From contig JALCKY010000005.1 in the NCBI GenBank assembly GCA_022647575.1, positions 184,370 to 248,369 on the forward strand: a stretch of DNA of 64,000 bases, written 5' to 3'. Of the stretch, positions 30,236 through 59,230 are shown in pieces (the first letter of the stretch is position 1; each line of letters opens with the position of its first letter). The notes beneath the pieces were generated by a model. It made no database searches, was not told the DNA's origin, and saw nothing but the letters and a program-made list of their open reading frames with translations. The DNA is from Lachnospiraceae bacterium (GTDB taxonomy: Bacteria > Bacillota > Clostridia > Lachnospirales > Lachnospiraceae). The translations under genes were made by a program, and so were the position numbers.

Positions 30236-30560
30236 TGATGGGGTACATTCCCATCATAAATGCCGCTTCACAATCGAAGCGGTATTGAACGATTCCATCA
30301 TTGTTGTTTAATGACTCCCTTATTAAGAGGCGAACTACAACAAGAAAACCGGAATTTGCCTGTTTTAAAATGCAAAATCCGGTTCGTTCATCTTGACAGG
30401 GGAAGATGGAGTCGAACCCCCATTGACAGTTTTGGAGGACGTGGACTACCCCCGGTAAAAGCCGCGCAGATTCAACACATTTTTGCAAAACCGCGATTAA
30501 GCCAATGGGTTAGCCAATAGCAAAATATGGATCATTTTGGTCAGATTCGTTATTTTGCAT
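30236..30560. repeat. Repeat B: hairpins, core and R1 arm
   Basis: Starts with two perfect small hairpins (ATGATGGG/CCCATCAT at 30236-30258 and CCGCTTC/GAAGCGG nearby), then the core: hairpin from 30347 and the T-arm-like segment (GAGTCGAACCCCCATTGA). The R1 arm follows: GGAGGACGTGGACTACCCCC, then AAGCCAATGGGTTAGCCAAT with paired AGCCAAT motifs, ending near TTATTTTGCATAA. No L arm lies to its left. It marks the left edge of AbiE cassette 1. The remainder of 30037-30630 holds no gene. Confidence 0.8.
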
Positions 30561-30630
30561 AATATCGATATGAACATACTTTACTACATGATTATTTTTT
30601 TATTCTTCAAAACCACTGAATATTAATGTT

Positions 30631-30813
30631 TCATCTGTGCCCTGCTTTTCTCTTATGCTTCAAGACCATCATGCGAATGGCTTCTTCGTATGAAATTTCC
30701 TTCTTAAGGCACTTCTCCATCAGTTTTTTATTTTCATCAGAAAGAAGCATCCCTTCCATCTTCATGGATGCCTCCGTATCGCTGATCATTTGTTCATTAG
30801 TCATTTCTCTCAT
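30631..30813 (-). CDS. Small antitoxin-like protein (VbhA family-like)
   Basis: 60 residues with the pattern of VbhA-type antitoxins, which normally inhibit Fic toxins: ASMKMEGMLLSDENKKL followed by KKEISYEEAIRMMVLKH. Its start overlaps the end of the AbiEii gene by 17 bases, so it is the third gene of the operon. There is no Fic gene in the window. It could be a second antitoxin of the AbiE system or an orphan. ATG 30804 is an alternative start. The family call rests on pattern recognition of a short protein. Confidence 0.6.
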   Translation of the reverse strand: MREMTNEQMISDTEASMKMEGMLLSDENKKLMEKCLKKEISYEEAIRMMVLKHKRKAGHR

Positions 30814-31729
30814 CTGAATTCATTCCTTGTGCTGGCAATTCCCATGTAACTTTCCCAGATGACCAATGTTCATGGAAATCATTTTCTTCAATGACCGCTG
30901 TATACGGTTTACAGAGGAATATTCCAATTGTATCAATCGCTGTTCCCAAGTCAGCATCTCCTGCAATCTTTCTTGAAAATGCTTTCCACTTCTTCTGCAT
31001 GCCTTCGTCCTTCTTGAATGTCATAATCCGTTCAAATTGTTCCGCTGTAAAATTCCGGTTTCGATTATGAAAAGTCCTGCGTATTGCTTCTGTCAGTATT
31101 TTCCCATCAAAATCGAATTTATTTGCCAAATAATACAGATCGTAATAGTCTTTCATCCTGCTGGAGAATTCCATAAGGTCAAGTATTGCATCCAGTTTTT
31201 CGGTAACGGTTGTTTCAACAGAATAAGTGTTAATATAAGGTGCAGCAAAGTCCGGCAGCTGTGTAGGGATTCTCCTTTTAACCTGTTTTGGTACGATAAT
31301 ATCCCCTACCCCGAAATCAATTGAAATCGGTGTCCTCGTATTTTTTATCCGGGCGATTAAAGAAATTCCGACTCCTGCATACTTCTTATTGACGGCAATC
31401 TGTTCCGCATTCTTTATTTCAAATGAAATAAATGTGTTGCCCGTATCAACAGGGATGATTTCTTCCAGCATTTCACGAAGATGTTCAGGCGTTCCCGGCT
31501 GCCTCTTCAGTAGAAAATCGACGTCGACCGTCACACGGCTGTCATAATCCGTAATGGAATAAAGGAACAGGCCCCCTTTTAAGACAAGATTATCCGCATA
31601 CTGCGATTTTTCCACGCGGCGTAAAAATTCTTCCTGGCAAAAAAGCTGCAGGCACAGCTGATAACTTCTGCCGCTTTCAGCCGCCTTGTTTTTCAGTCTC
31701 GCCAATACCGAAGCACCGCAATCAGCCAT
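30797..31729 (-). CDS. abiEii: AbiEii/AbiGii nucleotidyltransferase toxin (module 1)
   Basis: 310 residues. The nucleotidyltransferase motif is clear: LKGG (Lys51-Gly53) and Asp69/Asp71 in RVTVDVDFLL, then a second core element ISIDFGVGDIIVP and a C-terminal helical region with KLDAILDLMEFSSRMKDYYD. AbiEii enzymes are toxins neutralised by AbiEi, in some cases by modifying tRNA acceptor ends, and cause abortive infection of phage-infected cells. It overlaps abiEi by eight bases and the small VbhA-like gene by 17. Confidence 0.92.
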   Translation of the reverse strand: MADCGASVLARLKNKAAESGRSYQLCLQLFCQEEFLRRVEKSQYADNLVLKGGLFLYSITDYDSRVTVDVDFLLKRQPGTPEHLREMLEEIIPVDTGNTFISFEIKNAEQIAVNKKYAGVGISLIARIKNTRTPISIDFGVGDIIVPKQVKRRIPTQLPDFAAPYINTYSVETTVTEKLDAILDLMEFSSRMKDYYDLYYLANKFDFDGKILTEAIRRTFHNRNRNFTAEQFERIMTFKKDEGMQKKWKAFSRKIAGDADLGTAIDTIGIFLCKPYTAVIEENDFHEHWSSGKVTWELPAQGMNSDERND

Positions 31730-32330
31730 TCAGGATTACCTCCATCAGATCATTTACTCTCTTCGTCAGTTTCATCTCTTCCGTATACTTCGAAAGATTA
31801 TAAAGATTCTTTTTTTCGTCGGCTGCATATGCATGGACTGCCTTGTTAAATATTTCGGCATCCAGCTTCGTGCGGTATTTGAAGCAATCACAAAGCGTAC
31901 GTTCCCTGTCATAAACAGGAAGTTCAACAGCGTTGAATACATCTTTCGTTTTTCCGATATTGATCTGTTCATCAGGGATATAATATATTTTCATTTGAAT
32001 CCTGTCTATCTTCAGCCTGCTTCGCGATATTGTCCTTGGAACGGCCACATTCCAGATACGCGGCATAAAGTCACTGTAGCCATAATGAAAAAGAGCAGAC
32101 TCCACACAAATGATGCCTTCAGGCAGAAGAAGAGAAAGAATCTTTTCATCAGAAATGTCTGCATCACCGGCAAGCATATAATAGCTATGGCGGATTCGTT
32201 CCAAAAATCCCTCATCGCACAGGCGGCACACCTCATATCTGGCCAGACCGGCTTCCTCAAATTCAGATGTCTTTACAATACCGCCAGATACTTTAATGAT
32301 TTTTTTTACAAGTTCCCGCTTTGTCATCAT
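31722..32330 (-). CDS. abiEi: AbiEi antitoxin/repressor (module 1)
   Basis: 202 residues from ATG 32330 (a TTG at 32336 is also possible; no strong ribosome site). N-terminal winged helix (VSGGIVKTSEFEEAGLARYE), then the AbiEi_4-like C-terminal domain (VYDRERTLCDCFKY). AbiEi antitoxins act by repressing the operon, binding inverted repeats at the promoter; such repeats are present just upstream. First gene of the operon abiEi-abiEii-small ORF. Confidence 0.9.
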   Translation of the reverse strand: MMTKRELVKKIIKVSGGIVKTSEFEEAGLARYEVCRLCDEGFLERIRHSYYMLAGDADISDEKILSLLLPEGIICVESALFHYGYSDFMPRIWNVAVPRTISRSRLKIDRIQMKIYYIPDEQINIGKTKDVFNAVELPVYDRERTLCDCFKYRTKLDAEIFNKAVHAYAADEKKNLYNLSKYTEEMKLTKRVNDLMEVILNG

Positions 32331-32360
32331 TTTCAACTTTCAATACACAGAATTATTTTT

Positions 32361-32404
32361 TTGTGTTTTAATTGTAGTATATCCTGTTCTATTGTAAAAC
32401 ACAA
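32361..32404 (-). promoter_or_regulatory. AbiE module 1 promoter and AbiEi operator
   Basis: On the minus strand TTGTGT (32399-32404) and TATACT (32376-32381) are spaced by 17 bases, a good sigma-A promoter. The nine-base inverted repeat TTGTGTTTT/AAAACACAA (32361-32369 and 32396-32404) covers the -35 box with one arm and the transcription start with the other, exactly where AbiEi would repress. Confidence 0.75.
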
Positions 32405-32453
32405 TATTCTTTTTTTTTAGTTCAACGCATTGGCGCTTTTCTCTTTTTGTCTT

Positions 32454-32822
32454 GTTTCACAAATTCATACAGAATCTAGCCAACAATTAGCCAAAACCAA
32501 CTGGCTATCTCCGGCTATCCGCGGTACATTTTGACAATATCTGGCAGTTCAACTTCGCAGCGGCCGATATTTTTATTTCTCGACAACCTGCATAGATACA
32601 AATAAAACCGGATTCTGCCTCATTTCAAAGGCAAAATCCGGTTCGTTAATCTTGACCGGGGGAAGAGGGAGTCGAACCCCCATTGACGGTTTGACCCCAA
32701 GGGCCCATAGTGGAGGTCGCAAGTTAGCCCCGGAAAAAGCGCGGAAAATCAAGTTATTTTGACAAAGCATCTGCTGTGGGCGAAATCTTTTCGGTGGGCA
32801 AATTCGTCATTTTACACAATAT
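32454..32822. repeat. Repeat C: L arm, core and R2 arm
   Basis: The L arm (from 32454; TAGCCAACAATTAGCCAAAA, then ACTGGCTAT and GCGGTACATTTTG) leads into the core hairpin (AACCGGATT at 32606) and T-arm-like segment. After the core comes the R2 arm (GGAGGTCGCAAGT, CCCCGGAAAAAG), which differs from R1 and carries an extra 18 or so bases (GACCCCAAGGGCCCATAG). It closes AbiE cassette 1 on the right. On the minus strand the hairpin is followed by T-rich sequence and could terminate transcription. The rest of 32337-32971 has no gene. Confidence 0.8.
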
Positions 32823-32971
32823 AAAATATAGATGATTCTTTGTGGCAGATGCCTTTCTATTCGTTCAACTATATTACAGAATATGATTTATATGCAAGCA
32901 ATTCTCCAGGTCTGCATCTCAGGGGACTCAGCGCAGTTTCACCATTACGGATACAATGATTCTGTCAGTTG

Positions 32972-35653
32972 TCATGACATAGACATGCTTCCTGATTTTG
33001 TTTCCTCCGCATGACGCAGAATTTCCATTTTCTCAATGTGAAGGCCTCCTTCACTAAAATAAAGGCCGAGCTTTCCTTTTCCCGCATCGTTTTTCGGAAA
33101 ATGAACCTCTCCTGTTTTTTCTTCTTTGCCATGAAAAGAGACTGTCTCAAGATGCCTTGAATTCCAGTAAAAAGAGAATGGAACCTGCGCCATTTCGGAT
33201 TGACTGCAGCTTATTTTCCATAAAAGATCATACTGTGCGGATTTCTGGAAATCCAATTCAAAAAGGACCATCGTTCCTTTTTCGATTTTATCTGTATCGA
33301 TATCAAGCGAAACCGAATCCGTGTCTATAGATACTTTTCGAATGTCCCTGTCTTCCGCTTCACAGGACGGTTCATGCAGTACTTCCAGTTTTTCTGCCGG
33401 ATGAACATCAGAGGAAGCAGGCAGGCACCGGATCAGTTCACAGATATTTTTGGCGCTTCGGAGCAGTTCTGCACGGGTCAGCGTATTATCCCGAAGAGCC
33501 TGTGCCGCATTGCCTGTCTTATCCGTCGAAGCGTCTGTAGTCACCATATAGATATCGTTCTGGGCACGAAGCATAGCCGCATTGTCATCAGGGGATGCAT
33601 CTTTTCCTATTTCATTCATCTTGGCCCACCAGTCTGTCATGACCATTCCGGAGAACCCCCACTCCTCCCGCAGAATGTCTGTCAGCAATTCCTTGTTCGA
33701 GGCAGACCAGATTCCATTAACCGGATTATACGAAGTCATCAGGCATTTTGCCCCGCCTTGCTTTACAGCAATTTCAAATGGTTTCAGGTAGATTTCCCGC
33801 AATGTTCGCTGCGAAACGACAGCATTCACCTCATTCCTGTTATGCTCCTGGTTATTGCATGCAAAATGCTTGAGTGTTCCTGAAACACCATTTACTGCGA
33901 GACCCTTAATTATGCAGGAAGCCATAGTGCCGCTCAAAAATGGATCCTCAGAAAAATATTCAAAATTTCTTCCACACAGAGGATGTCTTTGAATATTCGT
34001 GCCCGGGCCCAGGAGCACATCAACTCTGTTCTTTATCATTTCCATGCCGAGCATTTCATAAAGGGATTTGACAAGCTCCGGATCAAACGTACAGGCAAGT
34101 GAAGTCCCACAGGGAAGACTAAAAGCCATTGCGCCGCTGTCCATGCGGATTCCCGAAGGCCCGTCAGCGCAGCAGCAGATTGGGATTCCGTAAGCTGACA
34201 GTTCCTTTGTGATTCCGCCGAAGACGGCTGCCGTTCCCGGCGTTCCCTTCGGAGAGCACATCCCCTCCCCATACGTCAACAGCAGGAGTTCTTCATTTGA
34301 CAGCTGATTCAGGAACATTTCCGGACTGACTGCACGGTGCATGACATCCTGCCAGATATATCTCCTTTTCCTCGCAAGGCACTCTCCATGTGCCATCCCT
34401 TCTGCCGGCGCCAGCTGTTTTCTTTCTGAAGCATCCTGTGCTTCTTCTGTCTTTTCGAAAACCTGAAGGCAGGATGCCTTCCAAAAAGCTGTCTGCTCTG
34501 CACTTCTGACATCAAATCCTGCATAGAATTCATAAGTCCCCGGTTCCAGCACCCAACAGCCGGGATGTCCTGTTTTCCCCATATCATCATAAGAGGCAAA
34601 TGAATCTGCTAAGATATGAAAACTGATAACGCAGGTTTCGCCCTGTTTCAAAAATGGAGTCTTTTTGAAAGCAATCAGATTTCTAAACGGTTTATCCAGT
34701 TTTCCCTGCGGAGGGCAGACATACAGCTGCAATACCTCCCGCCCGGGTATTTCACCGGTATTCTCTACGCACAGATCCAGATTGATTTCCCGGCTGCTGC
34801 ATTCGCTTTTGGTGAGTCTCCAGGAAAAATTGCTGTAAGACATTCCGTAACCGAACGGATATCGCACCTGTTTTTTCGCAAAAGTTTCAAAATACCGGTA
34901 GCCGACATAAATTCCCTCTTCATAGATATTCTCAGTATCACCGCCGAAATTCTTATCTGACGGATAATCCGTCAGGCTGTATGCAATCGTATCCGTAAGT
35001 TTTCCGCACGGGTTCATTGCTCCGCTCAAAACATCTGCGGCTGCATTGCCTGTCTCGCATCCTCCCTGCCATAAATAAAGAACAGCATCCGGACATACAG
35101 AATCCATCCAGTTCATATCGATGACGCTGCCGGTATTCAGCACAACAGCCATACGTCGAAAGGCACTCCTTACGGTATGAAGCATCTTCATTTCGTCATC
35201 TGTCAGATAATAGCTTCCCGCACATGCCGCATAATCCTTGTCTTCCCCGGCGGTACGTCCGATTACTGCAATTCCGATATCTGCATGTTCGGCAGCTTCC
35301 TCTGCATCTTCTGCAGCCAATGGCATTTCTGCCTGCATCCATGGTTCCCCTGCCCATCCATTTCCTTTTTCCGGCGGATTGGCTGCTGTCCAAGCCAGAT
35401 ATTTCCGGGCAATCGGTTCATAAACCTTTCTCTGTTTTTTCAGTCCCTCCAAGATTGATATCCGATACGGTGCATGAACCATTCCGCCGGATCCCGTTCC
35501 GCAGGTATAGGTATCTGTCTGTACTCTGCCGAATAATGCCGCCGTCTCAGACGGCAGAATCGGAAGCGTCCGGTTTTTATTTTCCAGCAATACGCATCCT
35601 TCTGCTGCGCAGCGGCGTTCAAGAAGTGCGTATTCACGATAATCAAGTTTCAA
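32972..35653 (-). CDS. GH3 beta-glucosidase with permuted domain order
   Basis: 894 residues from TTG 35653, chosen for AGGAGGAG seven bases upstream and because the reading before it is not GH3-like. The C-terminal GH3 parts come first: sandwich domain (about 20-250, IAVIGRTAGEDKDYA) and fibronectin-III-like domain (about 270-370). A linker and then the TIM barrel (about 440-760) with LLGPGTNIQRHPLCGRN, KHFACNNQEHN, and nucleophile Asp674 in MVMTDWWAK follow. The last 120 residues form an extra beta domain. This reversed order is known from ruminal Butyrivibrio and Ruminococcus beta-glucosidases. Cytosolic; it should hydrolyse short beta-gluco-oligosaccharides. It is the last gene of the second glycan locus. 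Confidence 0.9.
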   Translation of the reverse strand: MKLDYREYALLERRCAAEGCVLLENKNRTLPILPSETAALFGRVQTDTYTCGTGSGGMVHAPYRISILEGLKKQRKVYEPIARKYLAWTAANPPEKGNGWAGEPWMQAEMPLAAEDAEEAAEHADIGIAVIGRTAGEDKDYAACAGSYYLTDDEMKMLHTVRSAFRRMAVVLNTGSVIDMNWMDSVCPDAVLYLWQGGCETGNAAADVLSGAMNPCGKLTDTIAYSLTDYPSDKNFGGDTENIYEEGIYVGYRYFETFAKKQVRYPFGYGMSYSNFSWRLTKSECSSREINLDLCVENTGEIPGREVLQLYVCPPQGKLDKPFRNLIAFKKTPFLKQGETCVISFHILADSFASYDDMGKTGHPGCWVLEPGTYEFYAGFDVRSAEQTAFWKASCLQVFEKTEEAQDASERKQLAPAEGMAHGECLARKRRYIWQDVMHRAVSPEMFLNQLSNEELLLLTYGEGMCSPKGTPGTAAVFGGITKELSAYGIPICCCADGPSGIRMDSGAMAFSLPCGTSLACTFDPELVKSLYEMLGMEMIKNRVDVLLGPGTNIQRHPLCGRNFEYFSEDPFLSGTMASCIIKGLAVNGVSGTLKHFACNNQEHNRNEVNAVVSQRTLREIYLKPFEIAVKQGGAKCLMTSYNPVNGIWSASNKELLTDILREEWGFSGMVMTDWWAKMNEIGKDASPDDNAAMLRAQNDIYMVTTDASTDKTGNAAQALRDNTLTRAELLRSAKNICELIRCLPASSDVHPAEKLEVLHEPSCEAEDRDIRKVSIDTDSVSLDIDTDKIEKGTMVLFELDFQKSAQYDLLWKISCSQSEMAQVPFSFYWNSRHLETVSFHGKEEKTGEVHFPKNDAGKGKLGLYFSEGGLHIEKMEILRHAEETKSGSMSMS

Positions 35654-35675
35654 ATGAAGACTCCTCCTATGGCCG

Positions 35676-37139
35676 TCAGGTATTTCCAATCCGTGAATTG
35701 TTACGATAATCGCTTGGCGAAACCCCGTAAAGATTCTTAAAGGTTTTCATGAAATGCTTGGGATTTCCATATCCGACCCGGGCACTGATTTCCGAAATTT
35801 TAATATCGGTATCCTTCAGCAGCTTTTTTGCCTCTTCTATCCGCAGATCTCTGAGATAATTCACGAAATTCTTACCAGTATACTGTTTAAATGCAAACGA
35901 GAATATATAATAGTTCATCTGAATGTGATTGGAAACAATTGCCATATTCAATTCACCGGAATAATGCTGATGGATATATTCCACCGCCTCTTCGATTTTC
36001 TTTTTTTCTCTTCTGTATTCAACCTGCTTTTTGACGTCCTCATGGAGCTTCAGGATCTTTTCCATAAAAACATCCTTGTACTCATCAAGTCCGTCGTATG
36101 CAAAGACCGGATAAAGAGGTGCCATTTCTCCCTCTCCCACAACGCTTTTATAAATATCTTTCAAATCACCCAGGAATTCTGACAGAACCTGTGAAAATTC
36201 ATCCGGTGTCATCCGCCCGCTTCTGACGACTTGAAAGAACTGATTCCAATATTCTATGAGTTCTTCTGTGGATCCGCCTCCAACTGTCTGCACACGCCGG
36301 ATTCTGGCTTCCTCAGACAGAAGTTTCTGAACTTCAGTCAGCATGGCTTCCGGGATATGATGCTTCATTTCCTGCAGATTAGATACAGACCTGTTTTCAC
36401 AGAAAGCTGCCTTCCTTAAAAGAAAGGCTTCATGATAAGCGTCTTTTAGCTGGTCGAAAGATTCAAAGGAGCTGCTGATGCCCGGATGCTTCTTTTCGGG
36501 AAGCATCTCAGACAGGAATGCCATCTGCGGCTTTTTCAAAATCAGGGTGGTTCCATCCTGCTCCTGATCCAGGTACAGGCCCTGCATGTCATTCTGGAGA
36601 CTGGCGCATTTCCCGAGGCAGCATACCTGGTAACCACTGTTGAACAGTTCTTCAAAACGTTTTTTTAACGCAGACAGTTCAGCCGGACCAAGATGGTTTC
36701 CGGCAAGGTAATATTTCAGCTGAAGGACCCAGAGTTTCCTGTTTTCTTTTTCCGCCGCTTCACCGGCTTGTATTTCTGTTTCAAACTTCTGCAGGAATTC
36801 CGTAATTTTTTCCTGTTCAACCGGCTTTAAGATATAGCCGCGCACGCCATAATGCATCATTTCCACCGCATAGGTGAACTCATCGTATCCGCTGACGGCA
36901 AACGTCAGCGGTTTGTGCGGAAGATCCTGCATCTTTTTTACAAGCTCGATTCCGCTCATGCCGTCCATATTAATGTCCGTCATCATGGCATCGATTTCCT
37001 GGCTCTTTAAAACCTCAAAGGCCTCTTCTCCGCTTGCGCACTCAATGATGCTTTCAATCGGCACTTTACTGCGCTCCGCCATGATACGAAGTTCTTTACG
37101 AATCAGCCGTTCATCTTCAACAATCAGCAAGTTTTTCAT
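35676..37139 (-). CDS. AraC-type response regulator (YesN-like), second locus
   Basis: 487 residues from ATG 37139 with AAAGG seven bases ahead (an ATG at 37145 is too close to that site). Receiver domain at the N-terminus (NLLIVEDERLIRKEL, phospho-acceptor Asp in AMMTDINMDGMSG), a middle region, and a C-terminal AraC domain (IVSNHIQMNYYIFSFAFKQY; ISARVGYGNPKHFMKTF). It follows the permease genes on the same strand. Its kinase partner is most likely the YesM-like protein at 41972, from which it is separated by the binding-protein and permease genes. A candidate target is the repeat pair at 49586-49615. Confidence 0.9.
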   Translation of the reverse strand: MKNLLIVEDERLIRKELRIMAERSKVPIESIIECASGEEAFEVLKSQEIDAMMTDINMDGMSGIELVKKMQDLPHKPLTFAVSGYDEFTYAVEMMHYGVRGYILKPVEQEKITEFLQKFETEIQAGEAAEKENRKLWVLQLKYYLAGNHLGPAELSALKKRFEELFNSGYQVCCLGKCASLQNDMQGLYLDQEQDGTTLILKKPQMAFLSEMLPEKKHPGISSSFESFDQLKDAYHEAFLLRKAAFCENRSVSNLQEMKHHIPEAMLTEVQKLLSEEARIRRVQTVGGGSTEELIEYWNQFFQVVRSGRMTPDEFSQVLSEFLGDLKDIYKSVVGEGEMAPLYPVFAYDGLDEYKDVFMEKILKLHEDVKKQVEYRREKKKIEEAVEYIHQHYSGELNMAIVSNHIQMNYYIFSFAFKQYTGKNFVNYLRDLRIEEAKKLLKDTDIKISEISARVGYGNPKHFMKTFKNLYGVSPSDYRNNSRIGNT

Positions 37140-37238
37140 ATTCATACCTTTTTTGATAATACGCAGCAGGGATGCGGAATATGCCGTATCTCCTGCTGCA
37201 CTTATCGTATCATGTATCCTTAGCGGCTGCAAAACATA

Positions 37239-38081
37239 TTATTCTTTCACGCCGCCTGCTGAAATACTGCTGATAATGTATTTCGAGCAGAAACAGAATA
37301 CAATCAGGATCGGAATAACCGAAATGGCAACACCAAGATAGATTGCACCCTGATTCTTCTGCAGATCCGTTGCTGCATTCAATGTGGTCAGCATGACCGG
37401 AAGAGTCATTTTATCCGGATCATTCAGCAGGATCAAGGGTGTCAGGTAATTATTCCAGTTGGCGATAAACGTGCCGATCGACATGGTGGCGATGCCCGGC
37501 GAAATAATCGGAATGACAATGCTGTGGAAAATCTTCAGTTCCGATGCGCCATCAATCCGGGCCGCTTCCAAAAGGGATTTTGAAAGGCTGGACTGCACAT
37601 ACTGACGCAGGAAAAAGACAATTCCCGGAGCTGCGATTGCCGGTACAATGAGCGGGATGTAGCTGTTGACCATATGCAGGGCTTGGCACAGATTGTAAAA
37701 ACCAATCAGGCTCAGCTGCCCCGGAATCATCATGAAAACGACAATGATCTTGAACAGCCACTTATTCCCTTTAAAGTCGTACATAGCCATGGCATAGGCC
37801 GTAATCGCAGAAAAATAGCCTGTTAGTATCGTAGCTGGAACTGCAACAATGACGCTGTTGAAAAGTCCCCGAAACAGATTGACATAGTTAAAAAGTGCTT
37901 TCCAGTTCTCTGCAAAACTGCTTCCGGGCAGGAAAGAAAATGACTTTGTGATTTCCACGCCGCTTCTGGAAGAATTAACGATCATCAGCCAAAAGGGAAG
38001 GATACAGGCTAATGCCAGAAGAGCCAGCAGCGCATACAGCACAATTGTTTTAATATAAAATCCGGGCTTCCGTGCATTCAT
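37239..38081 (-). CDS. Carbohydrate ABC permease, MalG-like
   Basis: 280 residues, six membrane segments, coupling loop EAARIDGASELKIFHSIVIP. ATG 38081 follows AAGGAGG, and the stop of the preceding permease gene is one base away. Forms the inner-membrane channel with the next protein. The ATPase is encoded elsewhere, as is usual for MsmX-dependent importers. Confidence 0.93.
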   Translation of the reverse strand: MNARKPGFYIKTIVLYALLALLALACILPFWLMIVNSSRSGVEITKSFSFLPGSSFAENWKALFNYVNLFRGLFNSVIVAVPATILTGYFSAITAYAMAMYDFKGNKWLFKIIVVFMMIPGQLSLIGFYNLCQALHMVNSYIPLIVPAIAAPGIVFFLRQYVQSSLSKSLLEAARIDGASELKIFHSIVIPIISPGIATMSIGTFIANWNNYLTPLILLNDPDKMTLPVMLTTLNAATDLQKNQGAIYLGVAISVIPILIVFCFCSKYIISSISAGGVKE

Positions 38082-38082
38082 C

Positions 38083-38985: not shown

Positions 38986-39003
38986 TTTTCACTCCCAGAA
39001 AGG

Positions 39004-39025
39004 TGTCCGGGGTTTCCCCCGGACA
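39004..39025 (-). other. Intercistronic stem-loop with GNRA loop
   Basis: TGTCCGGGG pairs perfectly with CCCCGGACA around a GAAA tetraloop on the minus strand, 16 bases after the stop of the binding-protein gene and before the permease gene. There is no T-run, so it is more likely an RNA-stability or attenuation element that raises the level of binding protein over permease, as in other sugar importer operons. Confidence 0.75.
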
Positions 39026-39040
39026 TTGAAGGCAGCCTCA

Positions 39041-46849: not shown

Positions 46850-46856
46850 TTTGATT

Positions 46857-49521: not shown

Positions 49522-49585
49522 AGAAAGACCTCCTTTTATCTGATTTTATTCTGTTCCAATATTGAATCAGATAAAAGCAGGCAGA

Positions 49586-49615: not shown

Positions 49616-49774
49616 CGTCAGGATTTTATATCGTCTTTTGTCCAGCTTCTGTCCAATTCAAGATAATTTTCTGCGTAAAAAAGCAGATGAAAAAAGCAGA
49701 AAATATGCAAAATGAATAAATCCAGTACTCCCTGAACCAATACTTGTCTTTTTGAAATTCCTTATATTTACAAC

Positions 49775-49955
49775 GAAAAACCGGATTCTGCCTCATTTTA
49801 AAGGCAAAATCCGGTTCGTTCATTTTGACAGGGGAAGAGGGAGTCGAACCCCCATTGACGGTTTTGGAGGACGTGGACTACCCCCGGTAAAAACCGCGCA
49901 GATGCGATACTTCTATTTTAAAACCGCGATTTAGCCAATGGGTTAGCCAATGACT
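49775..49955. repeat. Repeat D: core and R1 arm
   Basis: Core hairpin (AACCGGATT at 49779 with AATCCGGTT), T-arm-like GAGTCGAACCCCCATTGA, then the R1 arm GGAGGACGTGGACTACCCCC and TTTAGCCAATGGGTTAGCCA. No L arm to the left. It opens AbiE cassette 2. The flanking parts of 49522-50042 hold no gene; a short minus-strand frame there crosses the hairpin and is not real. Confidence 0.82.
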
Positions 49956-50885: not shown

Positions 50886-51505
50886 AGCAGCACCTCAGTG
50901 TAGGTTCTGACTTTATCCTCAATCCCCATGGCAGCGGCATATCGCATCAGTTTTCTCACGTCTTTTTCTTTTCCCTTCATATATCCTTTCACCGCCGTCT
51001 GGAAGACCTGGATGTCCATTTTTTCTTTGCGGATGATAATATCACAGATTGTACGTTCCCTGTCATAGGTCCGGACCTGATGCCCATAAGGTGTTTTTAC
51101 TTCCGTGATCCCCAATGGAAAAAGATTGTCGCTGATCCGATAGACGCGAATTCCCTTCGACCGAAGATTGGATCCATTATAATTATGCTTTACCGTAACG
51201 GAATATTCCGAAGGCTCGCGATCCATGAGGTGATGCAGATACAAGGCCGTCTCATGGGAAAAACAGACCTCCCTGCTCCGGACATTGATCAGGAAAAGTT
51301 CATCCTGCCAGGCATCCTCGGAAATATAGACACCCTGCGACGCACGGATCAATTTTTTCTTCTTCACATAGGCGGCAAGCGAAACTCTCGAAATCCCGGC
51401 AGACGATACATCACGGGTCAGGAGGTAGCCTCCGTTTTTCTTCAGGAGTTCCTCCAGTTTATCCTCTATGGTTTTCCGCATCATATTTTCTTCATTTACA
51501 TTCAT
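50882..51505 (-). CDS. abiEi: AbiEi antitoxin/repressor (module 2)
   Basis: 207 residues if started at 51505, or 200 from ATG 51484. N-terminal winged helix (KNGGYLLTRDVSSAGISRVS), middle domain with EVCFSHETALYLHHL, and C-terminal RTYDRERTICDIIIRKEKMD. A good promoter lies so close that transcription would begin about at the first ATG; the inner ATG pair at 51484 then becomes attractive, preceded by GAAG. It should repress the operon and neutralise AbiEii. Confidence 0.9.
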   Translation of the reverse strand: MNVNEENMMRKTIEDKLEELLKKNGGYLLTRDVSSAGISRVSLAAYVKKKKLIRASQGVYISEDAWQDELFLINVRSREVCFSHETALYLHHLMDREPSEYSVTVKHNYNGSNLRSKGIRVYRISDNLFPLGITEVKTPYGHQVRTYDRERTICDIIIRKEKMDIQVFQTAVKGYMKGKEKDVRKLMRYAAAMGIEDKVRTYTEVLL

Positions 51506-51583: not shown

Positions 51584-51790
51584 TTACAAATCCATGCAAA
51601 ATCTAGCCATCGATTAGCCAAAATCTACTGGTTATCTCCGGTCATCCCCGGTACATTTTGGCAAAACCTGGCAGATCAGCTTCGCAACGGCCTGTATTTT
51701 AATTTTCCTATAACCTGCACAAATACAAAGAAAAACCGGATTCTGCCTCATTTTAAAGGCAAAATTCGGTTCGTTCATTTTGACCAGACA
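51584..51790. repeat. Repeat E, left part: L arm and core hairpin
   Basis: L arm (TAGCCATCGATTAGCCAAAA, CCGGTACATTTTGGCAAAAC) and the core hairpin at 51734, with one change in the right stem (AATTCGGTT). It breaks off after TTCATTTTGAC where the IS110-type element begins; the sequence resumes at 54195. About 25-30 bases of the T-arm-like core are lost at the insertion. Confidence 0.8.
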
Positions 51791-51791
51791 A

Positions 51792-53315
51792 TATGAAGTG
51801 ACCTCGCATTTGTAGAATCGTGGGATTTACCTGTACACTATTAATTGTTGGAACCAATAGGGACAGGGATTTACCACATACAAAAGGAGGCCGCATGAAC
51901 AGTATAGTTTACGTAGGGATGGATGTCCATAAGGAAAGTTACAGCGTCTGCTGCTACAACTTTGACTCAGATGCAGTCTTATACAGACAAAAACTTGGAC
52001 CGGATTATAAATTGATTCTGAAATACATTGAACAGATCAGAAATAGATTTCCGGAAGGTACAGAATTCGTAAGCGGTTATGAGGCGGGATGCCTTGGCTA
52101 TTCTTTATACAGACAGCTTACGGAACATGGCATGAAATGTATCATCCTGGCGCCGACAACAATGGCTGTCACGAATACGAACCGGATAAAGACAGATAAG
52201 AGGGACGCCGGAAACATCGCGAGATGCCTCGCCTTCCATACATACAGCGAAGTCCATGTGCCGACGGACGAAGACAATGCGATAAAGGAATACATCCGTA
52301 TGAGGGACGACCAGAAGATTGCATTAAAAAAAGTAAAGCAGCAGATCCTGGCATTGGTCATGCGCCAAGGAAAAAGATATGAGGGTGGAAAAGCCTATTG
52401 GACCATCGCACACGTGAAATGGCTGAAAGCCCTGGATCTTGAAGGCATCCTTCAAGAGACACTCAATGAATACCTCATCACCTACGAATACTCCGTCGGA
52501 AAAATCGAGCGTCTTGATCAACGGATTGAGGAACTGGCATGCGAAGAAAGGTATCAGGAAAAGACAAAAAAGCTTGGATGCTTCATGGGGATAAAGCCGC
52601 ATACGGCGCTGTCGCTGCTGTCTGAAGTCGGTGACTTCGACCGGTTTGCAAAACCGGAGAAATTTGCATCCTTTCTCGGGCTTGTACCCAGCGAGAATTC
52701 CAGCGGGGAAAGCCAGAACCGGTATGGAATCAGGCAAGGCCGGAAACAGCCATTTGAGGAGACTTCTGGTGGAGGCGGCACAGCCTTATACAAGAGGGAT
52801 GGTCTGACATAAATCGGAAGCCCTTGAAAAAAAGACAAAAGGGAAATGACCCGAAAACTGTAGCCTATGCCGATAAGGCGAACGAAAGACTGCGGAGGCG
52901 TTATTACAAAATGACATTAAACAAGGGAGTCCAAAGAAACATCGCGGCAACTGCGGTTGCCAGGGAACTGGCCTGCTTCATATGGGGTATGATGACGGAT
53001 AATATATCATGAACGGTAAGCAGGAATGGAAATTCATATCTACAGATGACAGGATCTGAAAAAGGCTGGGACATATGGATAGGGTCTTAGGGCGGCATTC
53101 AAGGTTCGAACGATCTACGATTCCCCTATGTTGACACGGTTTTAAAGCACTGTGATTGAGACTAGACAGTGCGTTCACGGCGGACCATTGATGATGGCAG
53201 GAAAACCTGATCCACGAATAACAGATGAGCTGGAGTCTAGGACTCTATATATGTCCCGGAAAAAACAAAAACACAAAGAGTGATGAAACTTCTACTTGAC
53301 AGAGGTCACTTCATA
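51792..53315 (+). mobile_element. IS110-family element (IS1111-like)
   Basis: About 1.5 kb bounded by a perfect 14-base inverted repeat, TATGAAGTGACCTC at 51792-51805 and its complement at 53302-53315. Terminal or subterminal inverted repeats are a mark of the IS1111 group of IS110. One transposase gene lies inside. It interrupts repeat E within the core, which fits the taste of this family for structured targets. Confidence 0.75.
51895..53012 (+). pseudogene. IS110-family DEDD transposase, frameshifted
   Basis: ATG 51895 follows AAAAGGAGGCCGC. The N-terminal RuvC-like DEDD domain is intact (VYVGMDVHKESYSVCCYN ... NRIKTDKRDAGNIAR) and the C-terminal transposase_20 domain begins (MGIKPHTALSLLSEVGDF, LGLVPSENSSGESQNRYG). 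The frame then slips near 52735, an in-frame TGA lies near 52808, and the frame slips again near 52824 before the C-terminal part (KTVAYADKANERLRRR) ending at 53012. The slips are single extra bases; the TGA looks like a substitution. The element is probably inactive unless these are sequence errors. Confidence 0.85.
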
Positions 53316-54194
53316 ACAGGGGAAGAAGCATTGTATAATGGTACCGTAAATTAAGACAGTTTCTTGGATATAATGAATCTGATATACTAGGTTCAGATAA
53401 GCGACAGCAGATCGTTCTTGAAGCCATCAAGGGTGAGGCTGGGACGAATGATGGACTATTCCTCGAGCATGCCTCTTGTTTTTGACGAGAAACGCGACGA
53501 GAACATCCGCGATAAGCTTGACGAGACACGAAAGGAAAAGGGTACGCCAGGAAAAGTCGACCATGCAGGTCGACTCTATCGAGTTGCTTGGGAAAGCAAA
53601 TTTACCCTATGTGTGCACACGCGTTTTAACAGCAGCATATATTGCATTGCATCTCACATTCGAGCTTGACGAGACTGCACAGACATGGGGGCGCGGCGTA
53701 GCGTCAGAAACGCGGCTCGGATTGGAAGGAAAAGGGTACGGCATGAACGACCATCGATGACCTGATCTCTCGAAGCGCATGCAGGCAAAACCCGTACCTG
53801 ATCGACAGGCCGAACCACGTCAAATATCACTTATTTGAAGAGCCATGGCCGATTATCGACTGGGCTTCGCGCTGTATCGTTGGATGGGAGCTACGTGGAT
53901 GAGTCATCGAGGCGCTAGGCACTCTATCCATATGTCAATTCCAGGGAATACGGAAATCGCAAAAACAACGGCAAACACATCATGAGAGTTCTTTCAAATA
54001 TGACTGAATATCATCCGTGAAATCTTACAACTTACTCCGCCATCGGCAACAGACTCCGGCATCTTGTTACTATCCAATAGCTGACACGTAGCCTGACTAA
54101 GCATCAACCTTCTTATCCACAGACCGTAACCGTTAACCGATATCTATTCATTATATTTTTAAAAGAAAATTGTCTTGACAACTGACCCCACTAT
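53316..54194. other. Degenerate region beside the IS element
   Basis: Short open stretches in several frames (such as YNESDILGSDKRQQIVLEA near 53370 and IELLGKANLPYVCTRVLTAA near 53580) suggest broken coding sequence. I cannot assign a family. One stretch (IIDWASRCIVGWEL near 53850) faintly recalls an integrase core. It lies between the right inverted repeat of the IS110 element and the resumption of repeat E, so it probably arrived with or after that insertion. Confidence 0.4.
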
Positions 54195-54339
54195 ATTGAC
54201 GGTTTTGGAGGACGTGGACTACCCCCTGTAAAAACCGCTAAGATGCGGCATTTTTTCTGTAAAACCGCGATTTAGCCAATAGGTTAGCCAACAGCAAAAT
54301 ATGGATCATTTTGTCCAGAATCGTCATTTGCACAACACC
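54195..54339. repeat. Repeat E, right part: end of core and R1 arm
   Basis: Resumes at TTGACGGTTTTGGAGGACG and continues through TTTAGCCAATAGGTTAGCCA to TCGTCATTTGCACAACACC. The R1 type of arm here means that a further cassette starts at this point. 54340-54581 has no recognisable feature. Confidence 0.8.
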
Positions 54340-54581: not shown

Positions 54582-55315
54582 TTAATGATCACCGGCGTGT
54601 TCATGCCTACCCCCCAGTTCCAGGTACAGCGTTTTCATTCTGCTATGCCGTCTCAGGAATTCAGCATATCTGAGCGATGCCGCATGCCATCCATTATCTT
54701 CCACAAATGAATCATCTGCCCTCAAATTCATCGTCATTTCAGCACCGCAGTCCGGGCAATGTGGAACAAGTTCTGCCGGAACAGCCATTTTTATCTGTAC
54801 ATCCTGCGGGATGATAAGATTTCCATCCTCCGCAATCATAAACTCCTGAGCTTCTATCATCTTTCTGGTTACAGGCTCGTTATCATAAGTAATCTGACGG
54901 CATGAATTACTGCACTGAAAAAGGCCATAATCTCCCTGCGTGTAAAACAGACGTTTCTTATCAAAGCCGCTTCGCTGGAAACAGTGATCCACATTGGTCG
55001 TAAGAACAAAATAATCCTTCTCTTTTATGAGATCAAAAAGCCTTTTGTACACATCATTCGGAATCGGTGCATATCTGTTCAGCCAGATATGCCTTGACCA
55101 CCAGGCCCAGCGCTCTTCAGCGTTGGGAAATGGATAAAATCCTCCTGAATACATATCCCGTATGCCATACTTTTCTATAAAATCCGGGAAATATTTCCGG
55201 AAGCTCTCGCCTGAATATTCATAGCCTGCCGCCGTGGAAAGGCCGGATCCGGGCACCGATGACGACTGCATCCGCATCAAGGAGCGTTTTCCTTCAGTTT
55301 CCTGATATCATCCAA
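54582..55315 (-). pseudogene. SirTM-class sirtuin, two frameshifts at the 5' end
   Basis: Start TTG 55315 (CGGAG upstream) overlaps the stop of the macrodomain gene. After two one-base corrections near 55263 and 55285 the protein reads ADAVVIGAGSGLSTAAGYEY, then FVLTTNVDHCFQRSG (NAD-site Asn and Asp), a CPDCG zinc pair, and NGWHAASLRYAEFL. Length is about 243 residues. This is the class M sirtuin that works as a protein ADP-ribosyltransferase in Staphylococcus and Streptococcus, coupled to a macrodomain that removes the mark. The 232 residues from 55280 onward are open. Confidence 0.85.
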
Positions 55316-56085
55316 GCAGACTCCGGTAGATTGCTTCATCTGTATCTCTGAAAACATTGAAAATCACCTTCTTCACTGATGTACCGTTCTTCAGGAAATC
55401 TCTGACTGTCCTGACTGCAATTTCAGCTGCACGTCTTTGGGGAAACAGGAATACCCCGGTAGAAAATACAGCAGAATGCTATGCTCCGCAAATCATCTTC
55501 AGCAGCAATCTCCAGACAGGAACGATAGCATGACCCGAGCAGTTCCTCGTGTTCCTTTGTCAGATTTCCCTGTACAATCGGGACCGACGGTATGAATGAC
55601 GTGACGGGCCGGAAGATTTATAGCCTGGCGTGATCTTCGCCTGTCCTGCCGGCTCTTCATATCCCTGTGCCTCCATGATGTCAGCGCACTTCTTCCGCAA
55701 TTGTATCCCGGCATATGTATGGATGCAGTTGTCGATGCAGTTGTGGTTCGGCCTGTAACATCCCGTCATTCCGCTGTTGGCTGCATTGACGATTGCATCA
55801 CACTGCAGCCTCGTGATATCACCCTTCCAGAGGATCATGCCGGGTTCAGCTTCCTCAAGTTCCTCAGCACTGACATCGCCTTTCTGATGCCGCACTTCCT
55901 GTAAGTATTCATCCTGAACTTTGAGAAATTCTTCGTCGGCATCTCCTGGCATCCTGATATTCATCAAGCCCCGAAGAAGCTGACGCTGTTTCTGTCTCAC
56001 CCGCCGGTATATCCATTCCGGCATATTGCCTGTTCTCACTCAGGAGCCATTTTATCAGATAGATTCTTTTTTCTTCATGCTCCAC
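55308..56085 (-). pseudogene. Macrodomain ADP-ribose hydrolase, about four frameshifts
   Basis: Corrected reading from GTG 56085 gives IKWLLSENRQYAG, ALMN-type region (RGLMNIRMPGDADEEFLKVQ), the macro core LWKGDITRLQCDAIVNAANS, RHVIHTVGPIVQG, and [20 protein letters not shown], ending with a TGA at 55308. The breaks lie near 56005, 55619, 55588 and 55476; each is cured by removing one base of a run. It belongs to the SirTM-linked macrodomains with an N-terminal extension, which reverse ADP-ribosylation. It overlaps the sirtuin gene. Confidence 0.82.
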
Positions 56086-56245: not shown

Positions 56246-56869
56246 TTATCTCTTCTTTACTGCACCGAACGGACAATATTTCAAACAGTTTCCGCAGTGC
56301 AGACAGTTCTCCTGAATGATGACCAAAGGTTTCCTTGTAATGTCAATGCACTTCAGCGGACATTTTGAATAGCATATCTTACAGCCGCTGCATTTTTCGG
56401 AAATAAAATAACCATGCTCTTCCTTCTTAACATTTCCGATAAAAAATCCCCTCTTGAAATCGGTTTTGATGACAGGTCAATAAAGTTTCCCGTTGCTTCA
56501 TATATCTGAAAGACTTCCAATGCATCTCTGTTTTTCCGGCTCCGGATAAATCTCTGCCATATATGGATTCTTCTTAAATATTGCATCCAGCCGGCTGTTA
56601 CCAATGTTCTTCACTTTCCCGCGAATGGAAACAGCCTTCTTATTCATGGATCCTTCCCCGCCTGTCATTCCGGAAGCCGCTATATATCCCTGCTCCATCA
56701 GCTGTGCATAAAAATCTTTTCCCTTCGCGGTAAGGAAGTAGATGCCTTCTTCATCATAGAGCATCATGTCTATCGCTCTGGCCACTGGATGCCCGTCCTC
56801 CCCGATAGTTGCCACTATCGTGGAATGGATATCCTCGACAAATATCTTAAGATAATCAACTGGCTGCAT
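56246..56869 (-). pseudogene. PNPOx-like flavin protein fused to ferredoxin domain, frameshifted
   Basis: ATG 56869 follows GGAGGTCCATC. The N-terminal split-barrel domain (VATIGEDGHPVARAIDMML, GIYFLTAKGKDFYAQL) binds FMN in relatives. After breaks near 56540 and 56450 the protein continues FISEKCSGCKICYSKCPLKC and ENCLHCGNCLKYCPFGAV, two [4Fe-4S] clusters. It is downstream of the riboflavin transporter gene ribU by 12 bases. Both breaks are in runs of A or T/G. Probably a redox enzyme using FMN from imported riboflavin. Confidence 0.75.
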
Positions 56870-56880
56870 GATGGACCTCC

Positions 56881-57486
56881 TCATTGTCTTCCTTTCAGGA
56901 TTGGTGAAAGTCGTTTGTATAACAGGATCGTTACCGCACTGACGGCAAATCCCTTCAACAGGTTGAACGGAAGAGCATTCAGGAAAATGATATCAAATTT
57001 TGTCCTGATGAATGGTAAAAATTCGGAAAAAGAAGCAATCAGCCGGTCCACCGGCATAAATGTCTCAAATAGAGGAAGCAGGATGAAATAATTAGCAGCG
57101 GCAGCCATGGCTGCCATAGCAGTGCTTCCTGCCAGACAGCCGATCAGGGCCGCTTTTTTTGTTCTGTGCCTTTCATAGATCAGCCCGGCTGCCCCGACAA
57201 ATGAAGCCCCCATCAGGAAATTTGCCAGTTCCCCTATTCCGCCCGTCGTCGAAGAGAAAAAACGGAGAAGATTCTTGATCAATTCTATCATGATGCCTTC
57301 AATCGGTCCGAAGGCAAAAGCCCCAATCATTGCCGGCAGATCCGACAGGTCAAACTTCGCGAATGAAGGTGAAAGCGGAACCGGAAACTCTGCAAAAGCC
57401 AGAACAAAGGCCACCGCCGAAAGCATCGCGATCGATACGGCGCTTCTGGTATCCAGTTTTCTTAACGCTGCACTCCCTTTTTCCAT
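56881..57486 (-). CDS. ribU: ECF transporter S component, riboflavin (RibU)
   Basis: 201 residues from ATG 57486, which follows AAGGCGG; an ATG at 57573 would add a 29-residue polar N-terminus without a ribosome site. Five or six membrane segments with the RibU signature KFDLSDLPAMIGAFAFGPIE and IELIKNLL. It binds riboflavin and works with the shared EcfAAT module encoded elsewhere. I found no FMN riboswitch in the 170 bases upstream. The following genes encode flavin-binding proteins, which makes the order sensible. Confidence 0.82.
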   Translation of the reverse strand: MEKGSAALRKLDTRSAVSIAMLSAVAFVLAFAEFPVPLSPSFAKFDLSDLPAMIGAFAFGPIEGIMIELIKNLLRFFSSTTGGIGELANFLMGASFVGAAGLIYERHRTKKAALIGCLAGSTAMAAMAAAANYFILLPLFETFMPVDRLIASFSEFLPFIRTKFDIIFLNALPFNLLKGFAVSAVTILLYKRLSPILKGRQ

Positions 57487-57660
57487 CCGGTTCCGCCTTT
57501 CTGATTGTATAATTCCTGGTACTGCTTCGGGATTCATCCCTTCCGCATTCTTGATGGCATCTTCCTTTTCCATGATGCTGCCGGAGCATTGACGCAGACG
57601 TCAGGATGAACTTATATGAGATGATGCCTGCGGTATGCAGTGCTCCATTTCACGCAGTTT

Positions 57661-58071
57661 TTATTCGACGGTTTCTGTAGGAGCAAAGCCCTTAGCCAGC
57701 TTGCAGGCAGGCTTATCCATATAGATAATCTCGAATACCGGATTGTCCCAGGACTTGTACATGCCTTTTACCAACGGGTCGATGCGCTCGAAGAGAGCCT
57801 TCTTCTCGTCCGGATCCGTGACGGCCTTCACCTCTCCTGTCATGCGGACTGTGTACCTGCCCGTGGGCTCCATATAGGTGAAGCCGACAAGCGGATGGGC
57901 AGTCATCTGGCCCCAGGAATCCTTATTGTTTGCAGTGCCGAAGTAATACCTGTCGTTCTCCTCGAACTGGAATTCCCAGCCGCGGGTCTCCGGAGTGCCG
58001 TCTTCTCTGACGGTAGAGAACAATCCGTAGGTCTTCTTTGGAAGGTAAGTCAGAAATTCTTCTTTCTTCAT
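57661..58071 (-). CDS. Pyridoxamine 5'-phosphate oxidase-like flavin protein
   Basis: 136 residues of the split-barrel fold: YGLFSTVREDGTPETRGWEF, YYFGTANNKDSWGQMTAHP, YTVRMTGEVKAVTD. Such small proteins bind FMN or F420 and reduce small molecules; substrate unknown. The promoter region holds a copy of the palindrome found before the MarR gene, so it is probably repressed by that MarR protein. Confidence 0.9.
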   Translation of the reverse strand: MKKEEFLTYLPKKTYGLFSTVREDGTPETRGWEFQFEENDRYYFGTANNKDSWGQMTAHPLVGFTYMEPTGRYTVRMTGEVKAVTDPDEKKALFERIDPLVKGMYKSWDNPVFEIIYMDKPACKLAKGFAPTETVE

Positions 58072-58097
58072 GGTGATGATCTCCTTTATATTTTATT

Positions 58098-58113
58098 ATT
58101 TGTATATGCAAAT
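58098..58113. promoter_or_regulatory. MarR-type operator upstream of the flavin protein
   Basis: ATTTGTATATGCAAAT, one mismatch from a perfect 16-base palindrome, 27 bases before the start. The same motif, perfect, precedes the MarR gene at 58617. Confidence 0.75.
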
Positions 58114-58152
58114 GATGGCTTAAAAAAATTTGTGACACCATAATTGCCTGAA

Positions 58153-58587
58153 TCAAAAAGATTCCTCCAGCTTTTCCGCTGCAGCCACCATCTCCGCCGG
58201 CAGGCTTTTCGCAGCCTCCGGCCCGAGGATGCCATTGCACCGCTGCGCGAGTTCCATCATCGCCGCATCGATCTTTTCCGTCTTTTTGCGTCCTTCGACC
58301 GTCAGGCAGATGTGGACAGTCTTCCAATCCGTTTCCTTGCGAAGGATGCCCTGCTTTTCCAAAGCATTCACAAAACGCGTACAGGTAGAAGGAGCGATAT
58401 CCAGCTTCGCGCTCAACTCTGTCATTGTGATCTCAGGATATTGGTTCACAACGATCAGCAGGTAGATGGAAGGAGTAGAAAGCCCGGTGGATTTGTAGAC
58501 GTCGTTCGCCATTCGTCTCATGACATTTGAAAGACGATTGGAAGTGAAGAACAAGCATTTCGTCAAAGCTGATTCATCCATCTGCAT
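58153..58587 (-). CDS. MarR-family regulator
   Basis: 144 residues, winged helix with ITMTELSAKLDIAPSTCTRF and LEKQGILRKETDWKTVHICL. ATG 58587 follows AAAGGAGGAATGATGAA. Palindromes before its own gene and before the downstream flavin protein indicate autorepression and control of that gene. A Cys at position 11 might sense oxidants, but this is speculative. Confidence 0.92.
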   Translation of the reverse strand: MQMDESALTKCLFFTSNRLSNVMRRMANDVYKSTGLSTPSIYLLIVVNQYPEITMTELSAKLDIAPSTCTRFVNALEKQGILRKETDWKTVHICLTVEGRKKTEKIDAAMMELAQRCNGILGPEAAKSLPAEMVAAAEKLEESF

Positions 58588-58616
58588 TTCATCATTCCTC
58601 CTTTCGCCCTTTTTTC

Positions 58617-58632
58617 ATTTGCATATGCAAAT
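58617..58632. promoter_or_regulatory. MarR operator
   Basis: Perfect palindrome ATTTGCATATGCAAAT (18 bases with the outer C and G) 29 bases before the MarR start. Confidence 0.82.
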
Positions 58633-58868
58633 GATACTGCATAATCATCTTCCTGTCAATAGAAATATAAATTTTTTTCAACAGTACCCGATTTACAGCA
58701 TACGTTAATCCAAAAACACTTCATTAAATTCATCAAAACCGCCTTGTAGTATATTACCAGCCTTCCTTCTAAAAAGCATCGTTCAATTTAGCCAGTCAAT
58801 TGCTCTTTTGTCTCTGAGTCAATTAGGCTGTCAGCAGAAAAAACATAATCTTCATGCAGCATGCATTT

Positions 58869-59230
58869 TACAAATTCATGCAGCATCTAGCCAACAATTA
58901 GCCAAAACCAACTGGCTATTTCCGGCTATCCGCGGTACATTTTGGCAATACCCGGCAGATCAGCTTCGCGACGGCCTGTATTTTTATTTTCCTATGACCT
59001 GCACAAATACAAAGAAAAACCGGATTCTGCCCTGTTATAAAGGCAAAATCCGGTTCATTCATTTTGACAGGGGAAGAGGGAGTCGAACCCCCATTGACGG
59101 TTTTGGAGGTCGCAAGTCAACCCCGGAAAAAGAGCGGAAAATCAATACTTTTTCGGCACGTTCTCCAACAATCCAAATCGCAATCCAAATTCATTTTTCA
59201 ATCCAAATTCGTCATTTTGCACAACACAAC
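58869..59230. repeat. Repeat F: L arm, core and R2 arm
   Basis: L arm (TAGCCAACAATTAGCCAAAA, GGCTATTTCCGGCTATCC), core hairpin at 59018 and T-arm-like GAGTCGAACCCCCATTGA, then the R2 arm GGAGGTCGCAAGTCAACCCC with four CAATCCAAA-type repeats near 59168-59213, ending at TCGTCATTTTGCACAACAC. It closes the sirtuin cassette. Directly after it the serine recombinase gene is cut short. The 58634-58868 interval has no gene. Confidence 0.82.

Follow-up and report, generated by a model that had tools for sequence, protein, structure and literature searches.

Tandem accretion of genetic elements at the end of a gene, including members devoid of an integrase, has been described in several settings, which are summarized here as they stand in the consulted excerpts of the papers cited. 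Cis-mobilizable elements (CIMEs) possess the attachment sites attL and attR and no integration or transfer genes, and accrete in tandem at a gene end together with integrative and conjugative elements (ICEs) and integrative and mobilizable elements (IMEs) (PMC5704250). At the Dehalococcoides ssrA gene, tandem islands are bounded by repeats of the RNA gene end, and 15 islands have no integration module and are discussed there as possible cis-mobilizable elements (PMC3146451). In the Methylophilaceae, an additive flexible genomic island, varying in content from 1 to 63 genes, is accompanied by repeats of the terminal 20 bp of tRNA-Lys (PMC10872708), and the anticodon-loop class of Islander is characterized by a tRNA 3' fragment and an anticodon-centred crossover, with tandem arrays known (PMC4383910). 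Here we analyse a stretch of 64,000 nt from a Lachnospiraceae bacterium (GenBank assembly GCA_022647575.1, contig JALCKY010000005.1, positions 184,370 to 248,369; hereafter the window), which, judging from its sequence, looks like a row of small packets of defence and stress genes, each closed by the 3' half of a tRNA-Trp gene. We consider it probably to be a tandem, CIME-like array whose cassettes have no integrase and were added one after another by site-specific recombination at that tRNA gene.

The window is the right end of contig C5 of the source genome (G000; 3.03 Mb, 11 contigs), and its last base is the last base of the contig. The boundaries of the array, A to F, consist of a terminator-like hairpin and a tRNA-derived core, both on the minus strand, and of flanking sequences, here called arms. 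Three cassettes (AbiE 1, AbiE 2 and a sirtuin/macro-domain cluster) are bounded by an R1 arm and an L arm, in the layout R1-cargo-L-core. As in CIMEs, these cassettes have no integration or transfer genes among the 10 open reading frames (ORFs) scanned with Pfam, an IS110 transposase lying in the broken core of E, and they have core-R1 on the left and L-core on the right, the E core between cassettes 2 and 3 being now broken. The locus differs from CIMEs in that it lines up several units that are very small and consist of a single operon each, more than one type of arm motif occurs on one core, and no ICE or IME partner was seen. At the Dehalococcoides locus the recombinase is the serine recombinase DsiB, the gene is that of the tmRNA and the repeat has 20 bp, and the excerpt of that paper makes no mention of paired arm repeats (PMC3146451); the Methylophilaceae repeat likewise has 20 bp, with no mention of arm motifs in the excerpt (PMC10872708). 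A tycheposon needs a tRNA border and a tyrosine recombinase (PMC10872708), while here the tRNA half stands without a recombinase. According to its excerpt, Islander accepts array members only with their own integrase, so the present units would be missed (PMC4383910). In the sense of Islander, the displaced tRNA fragment at the boundary is present here and the unit's own integrase gene is absent; the intact tRNA at the other end was not found in the source assembly, and a contig of another genome (C226 of UBA1066, see below) runs from the core into the 5' half of tRNA-Trp. The original prediction, which knew of no named system with this layout, was therefore too strong, since tandem accretion with integrase-less members is described (PMC5704250; PMC3146451, as excerpted). 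The general kind, tandem islands at tRNA or RNA gene ends with integrase-less members, is already known; an array that lacks an integrase and combines more than one type of arm motif with a single tRNA core was not described in the literature surveyed by title and abstract opening.

The hairpin-plus-core copies A, B, C, D and F share 78.4-92.1% of their positions in pairwise comparison, so that the common core claimed in the original prediction was borne out. Copy B (30347-30437) comprises a hairpin at 30347-30384 and a tRNA-Trp 3' half at 30397-30437, with two differences from that of D; copy C (32606-32715) a hairpin at 32606-32643 and a tRNA half at 32657-32715; copy D (49779-49869) a hairpin at 49779-49816 and a tRNA half of 41 nt at 49829-49869; and copy F (59018-59108) a hairpin at 59018-59055 and a tRNA half at 59068-59108, identical to that of D. 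Copy A (21975-22082; hairpin plus core 21975-22060) has a decayed hairpin and a tRNA-Trp 3' half. At E, the hairpin and the left stub of the core (51734-51785) are separated from the right stub (54195-54210) by an insertion of about 2.4 kb (51786-54194), which carries an IS110-family transposase gene (51820-52812, plus strand).

The core is not merely tRNA-like, as had been proposed, but is the 3' half of a tRNA-Trp(CCA) gene, from the anticodon loop to the acceptor end. The comparison set comprised 42 genomes of the same genus, including the source genome and Lachnospiraceae bacterium UBA1066 (G004), a fragmented metagenome-assembled genome. The D repeat had a match in 28 of these genomes, the latter two included, and none in the other 14. 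In the 26 remaining congeners the match spans 41-47 nt, with 100% identity in 17 (the same stretch as in D), 98% in one and 81-93% in eight, and at all 26 loci ARAGORN found a complete tRNA-Trp(CCA), compared with neither of the two loci of UBA1066. The repeats of the window diverge from the congener gene after TTTTGGAG, within the anticodon loop, at the 23 loci inspected as sequence. The core as a complete tRNA was rejected, as neither ARAGORN nor Rfam at its gathering threshold found one in the window. In addition, three congeners (G020, G030 and G034) have two tRNA-Trp matches apiece, on separate contigs.

An insert in the anticodon loop was seen in four core copies from two genomes, with 18 bp at C (32693-32710) and in two cores of UBA1066, on contigs C206 (L050) and C288 (L051), and 17 bp at A (22061-22077); the form found at C and C206 occurs, with up to three mismatches, only in the source genome and UBA1066 among the 42. 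The G+C content is 51.3% to the left of A, 48.4% from A to B and 40-48% in the array, compared with 51.6% in a further 190 kb of the genome outside the array. As A is the most decayed copy and coincides with this step, it is probable that A is the distal, oldest end of the array.

Read as minus-strand RNA, the hairpin (copy D) folds with -29 kcal/mol (z -8.35) and has a T run at its end. The inspected congener tRNA-Trp loci have a different sequence where the copies of the window have the hairpin; hairpin and tRNA half therefore seem to travel together. The hairpins may insulate transcription of the tRNA from that of the cargo. If the repeats were simply dispersed terminators of no mobile significance, a strong fold would be expected, and hairpin copies without a good core do exist (source contig C6; UBA1066 contigs C205, C347 and C288). 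However, in the data searched, the combination of hairpin, tRNA half and arms is confined to this array and to UBA1066; this explanation, which the original prediction had named as its own possible undoing, is accordingly very improbable. It should be noted that a break falls directly after the hairpin at E and in UBA1066 C205, and that in C288 a recombinase/IS91 block is cut off at the hairpin.

The arms sort as originally claimed as far as L and R1 are concerned. The L arms at C (32457-32605), E (51584-51733) and F (58868-59017) are 79.5-86.2% identical, and the R1 arms at B (30438-30518), D (49870-49951) and E (54211-54292) 83.1-86.8%; R1 compared with the right arms of C and F gives 53.0-57.1%, and the range widens to 50.3-57.1% when comparisons of L with the left-hand sequences of B and D are included. 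In contrast, the supposed single R2 arm does not hold together: to the right of the core, C and F share 64.8% identity and differ in their motifs. The R2 arm of C (32716-32831), at the start of the C-D unit, has a single GGGCGAAAT at 32778, while the right arm of F (59109-59236), which represents a third arm type, has a AATCCAAAT pair, ATCCAAAT occurring at 59171, 59183 (period 12) and 59201.

Paired direct repeats were predicted in both L and R1. Two exact copies of TAGCCAA are present on the left of C (32477, 32488) and F (58888, 58899), with a period of 11, and on the right of D (49932, 49944) and E (54273, 54285), with a period of 12; one copy is degenerate to the left of E (TAGCCAT at 51604, TAGCCAA at 51615; period 11) and at B (AAGCCAA; TAAGCCAAT/TTAGCCAAT, period 12). 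Counting offsets from the common TGGAGG, six of the eight right flanks examined have a period-12 pair that begins at 64-65 nt, namely as TTAGCCAAT at B, D, E and the end of UBA1066 C206, as AATCCAAAT at F, and as TGGGCGAAAT/GGGCGAAAT at the start of UBA1066 C206. The R arms overall thus show three motifs at one offset and one period. No such pair was found in the right flank of UBA1066 C288, nor at A and three core-less hairpins. On the left, where a pair was sought beside the hairpin in 13 flanks, the hairpin is separated by 123-131 nt from a period-11 pair at C and F, where the pair reads TAGCCAA, and in UBA1066 C206 (GGGCGAAAT), with E and UBA1066 C205 (GGGCGAAAT/AGGAGAAAT) below the threshold. 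Of 200,000 mononucleotide shuffles of the F flank, 17 produced two identical 9-mers with a period of 12 and an offset of 62-72, and no further TTAGCCAA pair of period 10-13 (up to one mismatch) was found on either strand of the window, with a filter that also misses the pair to the left of E. The weight rests on the three motifs sharing one offset and period, and on the recurrence of one motif at either end of a unit. Direct repeats that come in pairs with constant spacing and flank a tRNA-derived core resemble the arm-type sites of lambda-like tyrosine integrases, and by this analogy the paired 8-9 bp repeats are probably such sites.

These features also bear on the possibility that RecA recombination between the hairpin-core repeats, of about 90 nt, shuffled the blocks with no integrase involved. 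Although repeats 78-92% identical and the reassortment of left and right arms could be accounted for in this way, it would be left unexplained why three different paired motifs share one offset and one period, why the arms of a unit agree, and why divergence begins in the anticodon loop, and we regard such shuffling as improbable.

The arms match at both ends of four small units, three in the window and one in UBA1066. The latter, on contig C206 (identical to DCDB01000305.1), has the layout core-R2-[flavodoxin/reductase cargo]-L2-core'-R1, in which an R2-type arm opens the unit and the GGGCGAAAT pair recurs at the opposite end. The right side of C is 76% identical to the start of this unit over 122 nt. 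Its cargo consists of LysR, hydrolase, flavodoxin, aldo-keto reductase and flavin mononucleotide reductase genes; LysR lies on the strand opposite to the others, so that the proposed co-orientation of cargo genes is true of the three window cassettes and fails here. The R1 arm and the following 86 nt, ending 5 nt before the AbiE 2 stop codon, are kept in UBA1066 (173 nt, 91.3%); to the left of the core, the kept stretch adjoins the L2 arm and the UBA1066 block in one genome and broken glycoside hydrolase family 94 (GH94) genes in the other. The same R1 stretch with a different left neighbour is the best sign that units have been reassorted at the core. The UBA1066 contig ends beside this R1 stretch. 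Single cores join unlike arms, L with R2 at C, L with the F type at F, and L2 with R1 in UBA1066, and one tRNA-Trp core seems, from these junctions, to serve several integrase specificities.

R2 had been proposed to be the original flank, with empty core-R2 sites to be sought in relatives. Instead, the core continues into a complete tRNA-Trp, and not into R2, at all 26 congener loci, and an R2-type arm opens the UBA1066 unit; R2 as the original flank was thus rejected: R2 marks the start of further units, and the true flank is the 5' half of the tRNA gene.

Outside these two genomes little resembling the arms was found. The L arm occurs in one of the 42 congener genomes, at three sites that all belong to the array; G016 has a single match of 23 nt. 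The R-junction pattern matched two stretches in genome_contigs, the UBA1066 contig and one Kiritimatiellales contig, the latter considered a chance match because its flank has no core or hairpin; among 397 genomes of the family, in a draw without UBA1066, it matched only the source genome itself and one site with one mismatch. The same arms were not seen in viruses, five patterns having no exact match in viral_contigs. The F region (58850-59270) had no match among plasmids and matched 21 phage records; the 20 listed all involve 49 nt of the query at 84%, and 16 of these 20 are annotated as tRNA-Trp.

The cargo of cassette 1, all on the minus strand as in the other two cassettes, comprises an AbiEii toxin gene (30797-31729; Pfam PF08843 1.1e-45, PADLOC AbiEii 2.3e-87) and an AbiEi antitoxin gene (31722-32336; Pfam, PADLOC), and that of cassette 2 the corresponding toxin (50043-50885) and antitoxin (50882-51505), both also recognized by Pfam and PADLOC. 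Cassette 3 contains an apparently broken sirtuin-like ORF (54582-55280; NF001753 8.2e-5, 21.7 bits against a cut-off of 243; SIR2 E 0.033), a truncated frame for a macro-domain ADP-ribose hydrolase (55560-56039; NF003163 3.6e-51, 174 bits against a cut-off of 272) and, at 56498-58587, genes for two PNPOx-like proteins, an energy-coupling factor transporter S component and a MarR regulator. The C-D unit (32832-49778, 17 kb) carries GH3, a two-component system, a sugar ATP-binding cassette transporter, a GH149-like gene and the broken GH94 genes, and has no matched L arm at D. The unit starting from F holds a truncated Ccr-like serine recombinase, IS21 and a sortase-like fragment, and runs off the contig, which stops 4.8 kb to the right of F, inside the array. 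R1 and L do delimit the three cassettes originally proposed, but the array units in the window probably number at least five: AbiE 1, the C-D block, AbiE 2, the sirtuin unit and the unit from F. The serine recombinase of the unit from F is an N-terminal fragment of 131 aa (59239-59634), with SCCmec CcrB as its nearest model, and ends just to the right of the F arm. A third AbiE pair, on source contig C2 (L108, 8270-9695), has no cores or arms nearby.

Several observations weigh against an array grown by site-specific recombination. An intact tRNA-Trp was not found in the source assembly: with up to three mismatches, the 3' pattern matched only B, C, D and F, and the 5'-half pattern had no match. 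Around the 11 integrase loci of the source genome and UBA1066, no element combining an integrase with these arms came to light. The layout occurs in only one other genome, and that a fragmented one, in which a search for AbiEii found none. The A-B and C-D units have no matched ends, the E core is split, and the cargo of cassette 3 looks broken. As to the arms, the right flank of C has no period-12 pair and one unrelated period-11 match; the period-11 test on the left was passed by just three of the 13 flanks, no pair passing in those of A and B (nor in C205, C288b, C312 and C347), while pairs of other periods stood to the left of D (period 13, A-rich) and E (period 10), as well as in C288 and source contig C6. 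A weak TGTCCA pair considered as an arm to the left of D failed a further test. Moreover, chance alone yields some such pair of period 11-12 in 5% of 160-nt stretches drawn at random from the window, and in 10.7% of those of 330 nt.

The array shows partial decay, and the units might be former ICEs, IMEs or prophages that each inserted in tandem with an integrase of its own and lost it by deletion, so that nothing moves now. The broken sirtuin, macro-domain and GH94 frames, the destroyed E core and the decayed A would fit such remnants, and deletion is the usual origin given for CIMEs in the excerpt of PMC5704250. On the other hand, the three class-1 units (about 2-5 kb) keep both arms, for which repeated arm-sparing deletions are a less simple explanation, and the reading frames of the AbiE operons are open in both cassettes. 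We regard this as a serious alternative, somewhat short of an even chance. Growth by insertion of integrase-less units at one core, as originally proposed, is supported by the structure of core, arms and units; the enzyme and any present mobility of the cassettes are inferred.

As predicted, no integrase lies inside the cassettes: no integrase domain was found in the 10 ORFs scanned, and PF00589 had no match on contig C5 at E <= 0.001. The expectation of an integrase gene bearing the same arms was disappointed. Three integrase-family loci (one under the cut-off) are present in the source genome, and the stretches around them contain none of these arms. No arm pair, with up to one mismatch, was found in 26 fetched loci, including 10 of the 11 integrase places, the eleventh (UBA1066 C288) having a single GGGCGAAAT to the left of a core. 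At the latter locus (L051, 3-883), a tyrosine recombinase ORF and an ORF with an IS91 zinc-binding domain are interrupted at the cassette hairpin; because of this neighbour, the locus was read as an IS91-type insertion and the recombinase rejected as the cognate integrase. A tblastn search with eight of the 11 integrase proteins (all except L069, L070 and L074) gave no match in the 26 congener tRNA-Trp loci, many of which are cut by contig ends. On source contig C7 (L110, 8959-10391), a 410-aa tyrosine integrase adjoins tRNA-Pro(cgg) and probably belongs to a separate island.

The intact tRNA-Trp may lie beyond the contig end. UBA1066 contig C226 begins in the core and continues into the 5' half of tRNA-Trp; the end of the window had no match among the 21 other contig ends of the source genome, which contain no tRNA-Trp. 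The source homologue of the GH2 gene that stands beside the UBA1066 tRNA-Trp is on contig C4, where the 20 kb examined contain no tRNA, and the proteins near the tRNA-Trp of G001 gave one match in the window (23439-23843, 52%).

A likely mechanism can be proposed for the growth of the array. On the plus strand of the window, each unit runs in the order R arm, cargo, L arm, terminator-like hairpin and tRNA-Trp 3' half. The crossover would most likely take place in the anticodon loop, because the right-hand sequences start differing there. A tyrosine integrase, supplied in trans or by a neighbour and encoded by an element that is now absent or lies beyond the contig end, would join the anticodon loop of a circular unit to tRNA-Trp or a resident core; each incoming unit would bring a fresh tRNA 3' half and terminator, leaving the old half as the next boundary. 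The core is common to the units, whose arm motifs differ.

Integrons offer a further parallel, in that they too line up cargo modules that each terminate at a site of recombination. Here, that site is an arm-flanked tRNA half; an integron integrase was not seen, and attC was not searched. More tentatively, the tRNA-Trp core could be a shared docking port and the arm repeats address labels, the cassettes of each label being moved in trans by one integrase specific to it, with integron-like growth, tRNA-derived sites and a terminator per unit; we consider this extended model rather doubtful.

Tandem tRNA islands are usually recognized by their integrase genes. In this array, small operons such as AbiE lie between complete att-like ends with arm repeats but no integrase, and would be overlooked by programs that search for islands. 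Because the arm motifs of a unit agree, they provide a sequence-only test of the pairing between unit and integrase; this agreement also predicts recombination products that can be checked by polymerase chain reaction. If the extended model is true, this bacterium would possess a modular defence and stress array that grows in an integron-like manner, with a terminator built into each unit.

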